Shown piece by piece: positions 32,557-50,561 of a DNA stretch of 55,954 nucleotides. The position numbers were made by a program, and so were the translations under genes. The notes below the pieces were generated by a model. It made no database searches. It was not told the origin of the DNA and worked only from the letters and a program-made list of their open reading frames with translations. The stretch is from an uncultured bacterium. Lineage in GTDB: Bacteria > Patescibacteriota > Gracilibacteria > Absconditabacterales > Absconditicoccaceae. Each line of letters begins with the position of its first letter. Positions within the stretch are counted from its first letter, which is position 1. The stretch is from the NCBI GenBank assembly GCA_903904875.1, contig CAIVEC010000013.1, forward strand, positions 1-55,954, in the 5' to 3' direction.

Positions 32557-32621
32557 AAAAATAAATATAAGCCCACCACAGTTTTATATAACTGTAAACT
32601 TTATATTGTTACTTATGTACA

Positions 32622-32822
32622 ATGCTTATAAATGATTTATTAGATCTAGAAGATCTTATTACTATGAACGCTGACGATGATGCTGGCGATGATGATGCTG
32701 GTGATGACGCTGGTGATACTGACGATGATGCTGGCGATGATGATGCCGGTGATGACGCTGGTGATACTGACGATGATGCTGGTGATGATGACGCTGGTGA
32801 TGACGCTGGTGACGCTGTATAA
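32622..32822 (+). CDS. Acidic repeat peptide, candidate modification substrate
   Basis: A 66-residue ORF with a short non-repetitive N-terminus (MLINDLLDLEDLITMNAD), then four or so imperfect copies of DDAGDDDAGDDAGDT built on a 48-base DNA repeat, ending DAGDAV. It has no Lys, Arg or aromatic residues in the repeat. It sits between the DUF1704 peptidase and the ATP-grasp ligase and is followed at once by its own terminator. Leader plus Asp/Thr-rich repetitive core is reminiscent of graspetide precursors, but a calcium-binding or purely repetitive peptide is equally possible. No homolog is recognised. Glycines are GGT/GGC. Confidence 0.5.
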   Translation: MLINDLLDLEDLITMNADDDAGDDDAGDDAGDTDDDAGDDDAGDDAGDTDDDAGDDDAGDDAGDAV

Positions 32823-32843
32823 TAGACAAACCTATTACTATAT

Positions 32844-32871
32844 TAAAAACCACCGAAAGGTGGTTTTTTTT
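32844..32871 (+). terminator. Terminator behind the acidic repeat ORF
   Basis: AAAAACCACC / GGTGGTTTTT stem with GAAA tetraloop and a T-run. Its position directly after the 66-aa ORF supports that ORF as expressed. Confidence 0.9.
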
Positions 32872-33011
32872 CGTTAGCAGCAAATAGAGGTAATTATGAC
32901 TGAATTTGATTTCCCTTGATATCTCTCTATAATTATATAGAGCTTTTTAATGATTTCCTTATAAAGGATGCTCGATATGAAAACAAAAGAATTTTAATAT
33001 TTTATATCTCA

Positions 33012-43037: not shown

Positions 43038-43064
43038 AAAAAAACCGTGTGAACACACACGGTA
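43038..43064 (-). terminator. Terminator of the 137-aa membrane gene
   Basis: On the minus strand ACCGTGTG / CACACGGT followed by seven T, starting 4 bases after the TGA at 43071-43069. If TGA were Gly the hairpin would be translated. Confidence 0.88.
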
Positions 43065-43068
43065 GATG

Positions 43069-43482
43069 TCAAGAACTTTCAAGGGATTTTCTCTTATCAT
43101 AATGATATCTAAAGATACCTAATGTTATGATAAATCCGATAGGGAATACATAGACATTTACTATTACCCAGGATGAGGTGGTAATACCTACTCCTATTGT
43201 CGCCATTATGATCAGTATAAACATAACAGCCAGTACGATACCCATGATACCTACACATTTGTAATAATGCTTTCTTGTTCTACGCAGAACGCATAATTTA
43301 AGCAATAACCAGAACATATAGTAGAATGCTACATCAGCAACGAAGACTATCCAGGGCCGGTTACCTATCAATCCTCCTATCATCAGAGAGCATACCAAGA
43401 ACACGCCTATAACCAGGATAATGGGAATCCATCGCAACAACCAGCTGCCAAGATCCGAAATGTTTTTTATAATTTTTTTCAT
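43069..43482 (-). CDS. Multi-pass membrane protein that appears to stop at TGA
   Basis: A 137-residue protein with four hydrophobic helices (IPIILVIGVFLVCSLMIGG, FVADVAFYYMFWLLLKL, MGIVLAVMFILIIMATIGVG, FPIGFIITLGIF) and basic loops. None of its 11 glycines is TGA, and the frame ends in TGA just before a hairpin terminator. If TGA is read as Gly the product gains 11 residues, ending at TAA 43038-43036 after running through the hairpin. The compact promoter-gene-terminator form and codon pattern suggest acquisition from a standard-code bacterium. No family is recognised. Coordinates are given for the TGA-stop reading. Confidence 0.75.
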   Translation of the reverse strand: MKKIIKNISDLGSWLLRWIPIILVIGVFLVCSLMIGGLIGNRPWIVFVADVAFYYMFWLLLKLCVLRRTRKHYYKCVGIMGIVLAVMFILIIMATIGVGITTSSWVIVNVYVFPIGFIITLGIFRYHYDKRKSLESS

Positions 43483-43507
43483 AATTTTTTATTTTTTTGT
43501 TACTTAT

Positions 43508-43535
43508 CTTATATTTATTTACTGATAAATGTCAA
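43508..43535 (-). promoter_or_regulatory. Promoter of the 137-aa membrane gene
   Basis: TTGACA (43535-43530) and TATAAG (43513-43508) with a 16-base spacer. The -10 and spacing equal those of the cassette at 48976-49003. Confidence 0.7.
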
Positions 43536-47630: not shown

Positions 47631-48791
47631 ATGTTGAGTTTATATATCCACATCCCCTTCTGTGCAAGCAAATGCGCCTATTGCTCCTTCAATAGCATGC
47701 CGATAGATTTTTCCGATACGCTGATTGATGAATATATCGAAGCATTAAAAAAAGAGATCGATCATTATGCTGATACCATAGAAGATAAACAATTGAAAAC
47801 CTTATATATCTGATGATGAACTCCGAGCAGGATCTGATCATCAAGGATCATCGACATCATCGAACATATCAGGACCAATTTCGATTTCGAAGAACTGGCG
47901 GAAATGAGCATCGAATTGAATCCGTATCCTGAAGAAGAGGTTTTGAACTTCGTACAGGATCTGAATAAAAAATATAATAAGATCTCCAGACTGAGATACA
48001 GTTTCGGTATCCAGAGTTTCGACGACGAAGTCTTGAAGATAACAGGAAGAGCGTATAATTTTTCCAGCATTGTTGAGTTTCTAAGAGCATTGAGCAAGTA
48101 CAAGCAGGAAAATAATGTATTTAATTTCGATTTCATCGCCTTCGGAAAATTCCAGGTCAGCAAGAATGGATTCAAACAGCTCCGGCATGAATTCAAACGC
48201 GACTTCTTCCAGAACTTCCTCGCTAGCTGATTCGCTGACAGTATCTCTTTATATACCCTAGAAAACATCAAAGACAAGCTATGTCCGAAAATCTATTTCG
48301 GGACTGACGAAGAGATCATGGAAGAATTTCTGATCCTGAAAGAGATGGTCGAGAATGAATGATTCGCAAGATATGAAATATCGAATTTTGCTCATGCCGG
48401 CAAAGCATCAATCCACAATATGGTCTACCGGAATATGGAACCGTATATCTGATTATGACTCTCAGCCTCATCGTTCTTCGGTAACAAAAGATGGACGAAT
48501 ACGTGAGATATCAAGCAGTATATTCAAGGAGAACGGATCGATAAAAAAGCAGTCCAAGTATTGAATGAATCAGATCTATTGATTGAAGAATTTTTTCTCA
48601 GACTGAGAACCAGAGAAGGAATCGCCGACATCAACAAATTTATTTCTGTCCTTGTTCCGAACCACGAATCATTGTTAAAAAATTACAAAAATGAATGACT
48701 AATCCTTTTTGACTGAACTAAATTACAGCTTACCGATGAAGGGATGAACGTATATAATTCCATAATCACGGATTTATTGATAAAAATATAA
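47631..48791 (+). CDS. HemW-like radical SAM protein
   Basis: A 386-residue coproporphyrinogen-III-oxidase-family radical SAM protein. The cluster motif is SLYIHIPFCASKCAYCSF (CxxxCxYC). GGGTPSRIG follows, then SIELNPYPEEE and the RYSFGIQSFDDEVLKITGRA block, close to the HemW/HemN family (Q-S-F-x-x-x-x-L-x-x-x-x-R). YEISNFAHAGKASIHNMVYR is the typical E-N-F-x-x-H/N region. HemW relatives are haem chaperones; a haem pathway is not visible in this window. Start ATG abuts an R4 element. It ends in TAA and converges on a minus-strand terminator. Confidence 0.9.
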
Positions 48792-48793
48792 AG

Positions 48794-48960
48794 AAAAAAA
48801 CCTCTTGCGATAAACACAAGAGGACCTCATTAGTTCAGCTTCCTAGCAAACTTTTCTTTGTCGCTCCACCGAACAAAATAAGTAATCATTAAGATTACGT
48901 CTCCAACCTTTCTGACTGATATAATCCATATATAAATGTATACTAATTGCAATGTTTTTA
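48794..48960 (-). other. Short minus-strand transcription unit with terminator
   Basis: On the minus strand CCTCTTGTG / CGCAAGAGG followed by a T-run (48823-48794) is a good terminator. Upstream lie only tiny frames: ATG at 48929 gives 28 residues (MDYISQKGWRRNLND...) and stops in TAG at 48845-48843. An overlapping frame ends NKLN-like at TAA. It could be an sRNA or a peptide gene, or just the bidirectional terminator of the HemW gene. Not resolvable by eye. Confidence 0.35.
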
Positions 48961-48975
48961 GCAGAAATCTAATAG

Positions 48976-49003
48976 TTGACTTTTATTATAAAATAAGTAT
49001 AAG
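48976..49003 (+). promoter_or_regulatory. Promoter of the 125-aa lipoprotein gene
   Basis: TTGACT (48976-48981) and TATAAG (48998-49003) with a 16-base spacer, 28 bases from the ATG at 49032. Confidence 0.7.
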
Positions 49004-49031
49004 ATATAAAAATAAAAACACCCTAAAGTAT

Positions 49032-49409
49032 ATGAAAAATTTATTCTTATTATTAGCCATTCTTTTTATCATGGCTGGATGCCATAGAGAAAAGACACAG
49101 GAAGAAAAAAAAGACAGTGAGATGACCGCGATGATACATAAAATGAAATATAATGAATATCGCGACATCGAAAACCTTCAATTCGGTTATCTTATCGACC
49201 GCATCAGAGCGAGTGAAAGAATGGGGAAGGTTGTACAATTAGGCGAAGAGGAATTCGATGTTTTTCACTACAACGACTCTACCGATGCTTATCCTTACTG
49301 TTTGGAGGGTAAAAGATATACTCTCTGCATCAATCCTAAATCCATATTTCCCGATCACTTCACGATCATGAAGACATGGAACGAAAATCAGGACCAGTAT
49401 AATGAATGA
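49032..49409 (+). CDS. Small lipoprotein that appears to stop at TGA
   Basis: A 125-residue lipoprotein. The signal peptide NLFLLLAILFIMAGC has a perfect lipobox, then a charged linker (HREKTQEEKKDSEM) and a compact domain (YNEYRDIENLQFGYLIDRIR, GEEEFDVFHYNDSTD). All five glycines are GGN. The frame meets TGA at 49407, seven bases before a hairpin terminator. Under code 25 it would run on 29 more residues to TAA at 49494. As in the cassette at 43069-43482, this looks like a gene built for TGA as stop. No family is recognised. Coordinates are for the TGA-stop reading. Confidence 0.72.
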   Translation: MKNLFLLLAILFIMAGCHREKTQEEKKDSEMTAMIHKMKYNEYRDIENLQFGYLIDRIRASERMGKVVQLGEEEFDVFHYNDSTDAYPYCLEGKRYTLCINPKSIFPDHFTIMKTWNENQDQYNE

Positions 49410-49416
49410 TATTTAT

Positions 49417-49439
49417 GGAGCGTGTTCGCTCCTTTTTTT
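49417..49439 (+). terminator. Terminator of the 125-aa lipoprotein gene
   Basis: GGAGCG / CGCTCC with a TGTT loop followed by seven T, immediately after the TGA codon. Confidence 0.88.
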
Positions 49440-49532
49440 GTTAACAGAAATACACTTGCAAACTTGCTCAGAAAGTATATCTTAAGTACAGGATAATATG
49501 ATTATCCTATTTTTTATTTACTGCCAAAACCC

Positions 49533-50561
49533 ATGAGATTAGATGGAAAAAGTATCCAGGCCGCTATCATGCAGCTTGTTGATGATTATAAATTCGATCC
49601 GTACCAAGTCCTTGAGATCGTCAAAGCAGGGATCAAATCAGGATTCAAAAAAGATTATCCTCAGTACAAGAAATCCGATATCATCGTAAACATCGAGAAT
49701 GATGGAACCGTAACTATTTATAGAGAGCTTGAAGTAGCGAAAGAAGTTGAGGATCCTGAAATACAGATCACGCTCGCTGATGCAAAAAAAATCAGAAAGG
49801 ATGTAAAAATGTGAGAAAAATTATTGATCAACGTCACTCCTGATACGCTTGAACTTTCCAGGATTGCTGCTCAATCTGCAGCTCAGACTATCAAACAAAG
49901 TCTGAAAGCCATCGAGAGAGAAAGATTCTACGAGAAGTTCCAGAATAAGCAGTGAGAATTATTGAAAGCGAGAGTCATCAGAGTGCATGCTGATAGTGTG
50001 ATTTTGGATATCGAAGGAACAGCGGTCGTATTACAGCCGGATGGTCAGATTCCGAATAGGATGTATGAACCAGGTGAAGAAATATTCGTCTTATTGAAAC
50101 AAATCTCCAAAGGACAAGGCGGTATCGTCCTTGAAATCACTCAGTCCACTACAGAATATATTGAAGCTATCTTGAGAAAAATCGTACCGGAACTTGAAGA
50201 AGGTGTCGTGGCTATCGAAAAAATCGTAAGAATTCCTGGAAGAAGAACAAAAATCATCGTCTACTCCAATGAAGAGAAAGTCGACCCGGTCGGAGTGATG
50301 GTAGGAAGCAAGGGAGATAGGATAAACACCGTGCTTTCATTGCTCGATGGAGAAAAGATAGACTTTATCGAAGATGTGGAAGATCCGATACAATTGATCA
50401 AAAACTGTCTCAAACCGGCACAGATAAATAACGTAGAGCTCATCGATAACAAAGCTATCGTGACCATGGATGAAAGCCAGAAAGCGCTCGCTATAGGAAA
50501 ATGAGCTTCTAACGTGAAGTTAGCTACACAGATTACAGGATATCAGATAGAAATCAGATAA
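49533..50561 (+). CDS. nusA: Transcription termination/antitermination factor NusA
   Basis: A 342-residue NusA. The N-terminal RNA-polymerase-binding domain covers about residues 1-125 (SIQAAIMQLVDDYKFDP, SRIAAQSAAQTIKQSLK). The S1 domain follows at 135-200 (LLKARVIRVHADSVILDI). KH1 has VGVMVGSKGDRINTVLSLLDGEKID, and KH2 ends MDESQKALAIGKGASNVKLATQITGYQIEI. Length equals the minimal NusA without C-terminal acidic repeats. TGA glycines are seen in the S1 and KH2 parts. It normally lies in the rimP-nusA-infB operon; here it stands alone after an apparent acquired cassette. Confidence 0.96.

Follow-up and report, generated by a model that had tools for sequence, protein, structure and literature searches.

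A predicted lipoprotein gene ending in TGA directly before a terminator, at the stop position of its homologues, in a bacterium that reads TGA as glycine

The window analyzed here, a stretch of 55,954 nucleotides, is contig 13 of the 966-kb, 87% complete, 49-contig assembly of a freshwater bacterium (G000), for which a NusA scan yielded 12 named relatives, including Lac Pavin SR1 bacteria and the complete genome RAAC1_SR1_1. No tRNA was found in the window by ARAGORN and no RNA by Rfam. A compact unit (48976-49439) lies in the gap between hemW and nusA, and in its neighbouring genes TGA is read as glycine (Table 1). The original prediction had described this unit as a promoter, a 125-aa ORF with only GGN glycines, a TGA end and a hairpin within 10 bases, and all of these features were confirmed. 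The five glycine codons are GGN and none is TGA, the hairpin stands 7 nt from the TGA, and the terminator stretch folds with z = -2.8 relative to shuffled sequences. In long ORFs from sampled stretches of the same genome, TGA accounts for 1097 of 4022 glycine codons (27%), so that five GGN codons in a row have a chance of about 0.2 and the absence of TGA is weak evidence by itself.

Table 1. Coordinates of the lipoprotein unit, its flanking genes and the companion unit in the window
Feature	Position	Strand	Remarks
Companion-unit terminator hairpin, then T run	43044..43063	-	
Companion-unit TGA	43069..43071	-	G424 homologue likewise TGA; four other homologues TAA
Companion unit (unit 1), ORF of 137-aa membrane protein	43072..43482	-	rplI-uvrB gap
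Companion-unit promoter	43506..43535	-	Genome pattern scan
Radical SAM protein with HemN_C domain (HemW-like)	47631..48791	+	Upstream flank of the gap; code 25
Promoter TTGAC-N17-TATAAGAT	48976..49005	+	Sequence TTGACTTTTATTATAAAATAAGTATAAGAT; 29/30 positions equal to the promoter of the same gap in G386
ORF of 125-aa predicted lipoprotein	49032..49406	+	Signal peptide with ..FIMAGC lipobox, then compact alpha/beta domain
TGA at the stop position of homologues	49407..49409	+	TAA in G388, TAG in G384
Code-25 read-through extension	49407..49496	+	29 codons to TAA 49494-49496; crosses the terminator; absent from homologues
Intrinsic terminator	49417..49439	+	Hairpin GGAGCG-TGTT-CGCTCC 49417-49432, T7 49433-49439
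nusA	49533..50561	+	Downstream flank of the gap; code 25; 93-96% identical in G388, G386, G385

The claim that a second unit at 43 kb shares the promoter spacing and the TATAAGAT element with the unit at 49 kb was correct, and this companion unit held up as well, with 137 aa, 11 GGN glycines and a TGA at -8 from its hairpin; coding-score filters failed to pick it up. A scan of the 966-kb genome for the pattern TTGACN{15,19}TATAAGAT returned 8 matches versus 1 for the reversed control, and one of the 8 exact matches (C11) is the promoter of a stretch of 342 codons or more that contains 17 TGA glycines. The promoter of the lipoprotein unit is native to this genome. Other elements were observed nearby. 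The hemW-nusA gap contains on its minus strand (48801-48960) a terminator after a possible short hydrophobic ORF ending in TAATGA. Directly before the nusA start codon lies another, conserved inverted repeat with a T run, AGGATAATATGATTATCCT (49490-49515), which reads AAGATAACAAGATTATCTT in relatives, a paired change; it is possibly a leader element of nusA. Elsewhere in the window (32614-32890), a low-complexity ORF has 22-23 TGA codons without GGN in one frame and overlaps a frame of D/A/G repeats.

Bacterial lipoproteins are marked by a hydrophobic N-terminal signal with a lipobox cysteine at its end, and the N-terminus of the 125-aa protein, MKNLFLLLAILFIMAGC, was read in this way. A cysteine occurs at about the lipobox place in six of seven aligned members, and no lipoprotein model scored above cut-off. 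The structure was predicted with a mean pLDDT of 81, with a last strand at residues 109-115 and a last helix at 118-123, and in this model the domain is complete at residue 123. Fold searches with the model gave nothing significant (best Foldseek E 0.17), and the best VIA match, to profilins (Z 5.0), may reflect a common arrangement only. A resemblance of residues 93-121 to DUF4922 (PF16269; 29 residues, E 6.7e-4) had suggested a truncated Bacteroidota gene. It reached 20.1 bits versus a gathering score of 23.6, and this reading was dropped since the resemblance is lost in the G388 and G384 homologues. The genome contains two other DUF4922 hits, an unrelated stretch and a protein that appears HIT-like from reading its sequence.

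Homologues of the lipoprotein at E ≤0.001 were found only in its own family when 353 genomes of the class were searched. The closest one, in G388, is 60% identical, stands directly before nusA, ends in ...NKYNE-TAA and is followed by the same hairpin. G384 carries two homologues before nusA, of which one (36% identity) ends in ...DKYNQ-TAG, and the other (L208:3289-3324) has four TGA codons, all within its last 12 codons, and a TAG stop; the first two of these TGA codons (TGATGA) lie near the stop position of the relatives. Two further relatives before nusA in G385 both end in TAA. The alignment of the closest homologues has its common end at the TGA codon of the window. It had been stated beforehand that a conserved C-terminal extension past the TGA in code-25 homologues would refute the reading of the unit as a cassette with a TGA stop; no such extension was found, and the homologues in G388 and G384 stop with TAA and TAG, respectively. 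As homologues stop exactly at this position, the gene indeed has the TGA at its end. Codon comparison with G388 gave a dN of 0.26 and a dS of 1.42 (dN/dS ~0.19), indicating that the lipoprotein is kept under selection.

The terminator is conserved at the same place in four species (the window genome, G388, G386 and G385) and, together with the nusA leader, stands behind differing hemW-nusA units. Sister species fill this gap differently: G386 has a gene for a 119-aa protein, G385 has four units, nzgw385 has two small proteins plus a SemiSWEET-like protein, and G389 has a 93-aa protein related to the SemiSWEET-like one. The rplI-uvrB gap is occupied by unit 1 in the window genome, by a TAA-ended relative of it plus a nucleoside diphosphate kinase gene (NDK) in G389, and by NDK plus a gene designated 'EYC' in G388; these extra NDK genes lie at L087:10352-10828 (G389) and L078:3107-3547 (G388). 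Both gaps hold different small promoter-gene-terminator units in each species, which bears out the suggestion of a class of compact units. Since the units showed no common ends, ordinary recombination could explain the turnover of the gaps just as well as mobile cassettes could.

To place the TGA end in context, 2,245,525 bases of the window genome and its relatives, with 487 terminators, were surveyed. There were 261 genes ending in TAA or TAG before a hairpin and 20 frames running through it, ten of which have a TGA within the last 24 nt. Eight of these ten are gene-like, being free of TGA inside and having their last TGA 7-17 nt before the terminator: both window units, the 'EYC' gene of the window genome (L074) and its homologue in G388 (L078), the unit 1 homologue (L079) and a 149-aa gene (L137) in G424, a 129-aa gene in G421 (L082), and NDK of G389 (L087). 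L106 (TGA at -1) and the plus-strand case of L143 (TGA at -21 and, if the longest start is taken, two internal TGA) were left out. The eight genes have 55 or 56 glycine codons, according to which start is taken, and none of these is TGA. Six of the genes come from the window or from loci fetched for homologues of the window units, a selection bias; in the other stretches, four of 12 frames running through have a TGA near the hairpin, of which two are plausible genes (L074, L137). A ninth resident case was found in the hemW-nusA gap of nzgw385, where the SemiSWEET-like unit ends in TGA versus TAG in G385 and TAA in G389. In three families, the aligned position holds TGA in one species and TAA or TAG in a different one.

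All eight TGA-ended genes, versus 62 of the 114 TAA/TAG-ended ones comparable to them, are free of internal TGA (Fisher p 0.02); this lack is only mildly special, being common among comparable small TAA/TAG-ended genes. The distance to the hairpin is shorter for TGA, with a median of -10 versus -23 for TAA/TAG (p 9e-4). Among the matches listed, ORFs with both promoter and terminator end in TAA (64), TAG (11) or TGA (8, including two imported genes of G381, described below, and L178), and in no other codon more than twice. When overlapping ORFs were removed, as a safeguard against shadow ORFs, TGA was not overrepresented genome-wide at the stop positions of homologues, with two cases among 107 longer homologues, about the same as at neighbouring offsets. 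Extensions cross a terminator in three of 160 cases (window, L087 and L106), and in all three the hairpin is preceded by a TGA; L198, whose hairpin was missed by the terminator-crossing scan, is a further case. Taken together, predicted UGA-ended, terminator-proximal genes appear to form a small recurring class in this RF2-less lineage.

The prfB (RF2) model scored above cut-off in none of 25 genomes of the family versus 14 of 16 others of the class. Since RF2 is not detectable, UGA is probably read as glycine. ARAGORN did not report a tRNA-Gly(UCA) in 30 stretches amounting to less than half of the genome, which is no evidence of its absence. RF1 of the window genome carries the PAT and GGQ motifs. 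tmRNA scored above cut-off in 35 of 49 family genomes, the window genome's own hit being below it (24 bits). A second, GGQ-only protein with an RF-1 domain, which may be ArfB-like, is encoded in nine of nine genomes of the genus (G000:C1:24532-24882 and homologues) and in seven of seven genomes of genera g333-g335, 16 of 16 for g1 and g333-g335 together; it scored above cut-off in three of the 33 other family genomes.

On balance, we regard it as somewhat probable that the lipoprotein gene is a resident, fast-evolving gene of an SR1/Absconditabacteria lineage, located in the hemW-nusA turnover gap, whose stop codon changed to TGA, with read-through of UGA followed by rescue. The UGA at the gene end would be decoded as glycine, or the ribosome would stall there. 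The mRNA would end at the terminator about 30 nt past the TGA, so that a ribosome reading on would need about ten codons at most to reach the 3' end, where it could be freed by tmRNA or by the ArfB-like GGQ hydrolase, leaving a product with at most a short, unconserved tail. With the mRNA end so close behind the TGA, a change of stop to UGA would cost little and could be tolerated in a terminator-proximal gene. The tails past the TGA are not conserved among homologues of the TGA-ended genes. We infer read-through, termination and rescue alike from sequence. Two pairs of distantly related homologues have retained TGA ends (unit 1 in the window genome and G424, the 'EYC' gene in the window genome and G388), which is more than expected of a merely tolerated defect.

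This persistence bears on an alternative in which UGA is a true context-dependent stop, meaning glycine inside genes and termination where UGA is followed within about 10-20 nt by a hairpin and the end of the transcript, without RF2, the agents imagined being misreading by RF1 or a GGQ-only hydrolase acting on a hairpin-paused ribosome. The exchange of TGA, TAA and TAG at one aligned position in three families, the recurrence of TGA ends in homologues from different species and the short distance from TGA to hairpin all fit it. So does NDK of G389, which has lost the old TAA, gained 13 codons and then ends in TGA just before the homologous terminator. The GGQ-only protein was found in all 16 genomes of genera with resident TGA ends or their close kin, a correlation that is weak because no more than 400 kb were sampled outside g1 and g333-g335. 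Against it stand the canonical RF1 motif and the low share of TGA, about 3% of terminator-proximal genes (8 versus 261), and we know of no factor for such UGA termination. We therefore consider this alternative rather unlikely; its more specific form, in which the meaning of UGA in RF2-less bacteria would depend on its position, being glycine within genes and stop at terminator-proximal ends through a hairpin plus a GGQ-only (ArfB-like) hydrolase or rescue factor, seems slightly less likely again. A protein of 154 aa, with TGA as glycine, a functional tail and a hairpin that is no terminator, would agree with the code-25 frame, which is open to 49496. This is quite improbable, given that homologues stop at the TGA position, the predicted domain is finished by residue 123, and the hairpin with its T7 is conserved where the stop of homologues precedes it. 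An error of base calling or assembly turning TAA into TGA is the least probable reading. A single base separates the TGA of the window from the TAA of its nearest relative, and the source is a metagenome assembly in 49 contigs, but the pattern is repeated in three genes of the window genome and in five other assemblies (G388, G389, G421, G424 and nzgw385), one of which is the single-contig RAAC1_SR1_1.

The original prediction had proposed that both units came from one donor or belong to a class of compact mobile cassettes entering a recoded genome, so that an imported standard-code gene would have retained its TGA stop. The all-GGN glycines, seen likewise in the other units, would fit, and import would also predict TGA-ended genes without internal TGA. 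Import does occur in the relative G381, where dapD and the gene for a 153-aa neighbour both end in TGA before convergent terminators, within an island of 11-13 kb at 43-47% G+C in surroundings of 19-35% G+C. This dapD (464 bits to TIGR00965, 59% G+C) is 76% identical in DNA to Klebsiella dapD over 644 bases, and appears to be a genuine recent import, with contamination of the single-contig assembly possible; the import scenario is therefore real for other genes. The dapD locus (L143:11050-12467; G381:C1, ~111.0-112.5 kb) is of gammaproteobacterial type, with 31 GGN and no TGA. The foreign signs of the dapD island are absent from the window units. Homologues of both units occupy the same gaps in code-25 sister species, with TAA or TAG stops, and the G384 paralogue carries TGA codons in its own frame. 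G+C, GC3 and the promoter are native: the lipoprotein gene has a G+C of 0.373 versus 0.362 for the window and a GC3 of 0.44 versus 0.42-0.47 for nusA, uvrB and hemW. Comparison of the unit ends, suggested as a check for attachment-like sequences, revealed none in common; the units are alike in promoter and leader alone (76% identity across 66 columns, E 8e-7), and the two flanks of the lipoprotein unit have no 10-mer in common. The search for a donor found nothing homologous in plasmids, phages or viral contigs, and exact peptides gave no match in GTDB genomes. Import of the lipoprotein unit is not supported by these sequence comparisons and is improbable, somewhat less so than the 154-aa reading. 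Phages with standard-code-compatible genes are a possible ultimate source of some units; the phage search showed no homologue.

In bacteria that read UGA as glycine, a minority of intact, conserved genes are UGA-ended, exchanging with UAA or UAG between sister species, which raises the testable question of the fate of a ribosome at an end-of-gene UGA without RF2. Gene callers are warned that code-25 annotation of such genes produces spurious tails crossing terminators. An all-GGN gene with a TGA end is no evidence of import by itself. A literature search that covered mostly papers outside subscription turned up no description of UGA-ended genes for this group of bacteria.

The window resembles other code-25 bacteria (SR1/Absconditabacteria, Gracilibacteria) in its TGA glycines in neighbouring genes and the lack of a detectable RF2, and differs in having TGA at the stop position of homologues. 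Proteomics of a BD1-5 bacterium supports UGA as glycine, according to the portion of that work available (PMC4032931), and the Codetta screen is by its own statement, in the part of the paper accessible, unable to detect context-dependent stops (PMC8629427). Phages of SR1 and Gracilibacteria are described, in the sections available, as compatible with code 11, with TGA stops closely trailed by other stops (PMC10746230); the likeness lies in genes that lack in-frame TGA and can end in TGA, whereas the present genes are chromosomal, have same-gap homologues and, for the lipoprotein gene, have the next stop 29 codons away. The genes for ArfA and BrfA are viable with a terminator before the stop codon, as presented in the accessible part of the source (PMC8012679). 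Similarly, an intrinsic terminator (49417-49439) lies here inside the code-25 frame ending at 49496, and a non-stop mRNA is predicted; by contrast, no sign of a rescue factor was seen in this gene, and the normal stop of homologues precedes the hairpin. The lipoprotein-like N-terminus makes it unlikely that the product is itself a ribosome rescue factor. In Condylostoma and Parduczia, stop codons near transcript ends are context-dependent, going by the available excerpt (PMC4967479). As in those ciliates, TGA is a sense codon inside neighbouring genes and stands, near the mRNA 3' end, where homologues have their stop; the present case differs in being bacterial, in concerning a few percent of genes, in having no release factor known for UGA and in being drawn from genome data alone. 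If true, position-dependent UGA would parallel, in bacteria, the stops of ciliates that depend on the transcript end.
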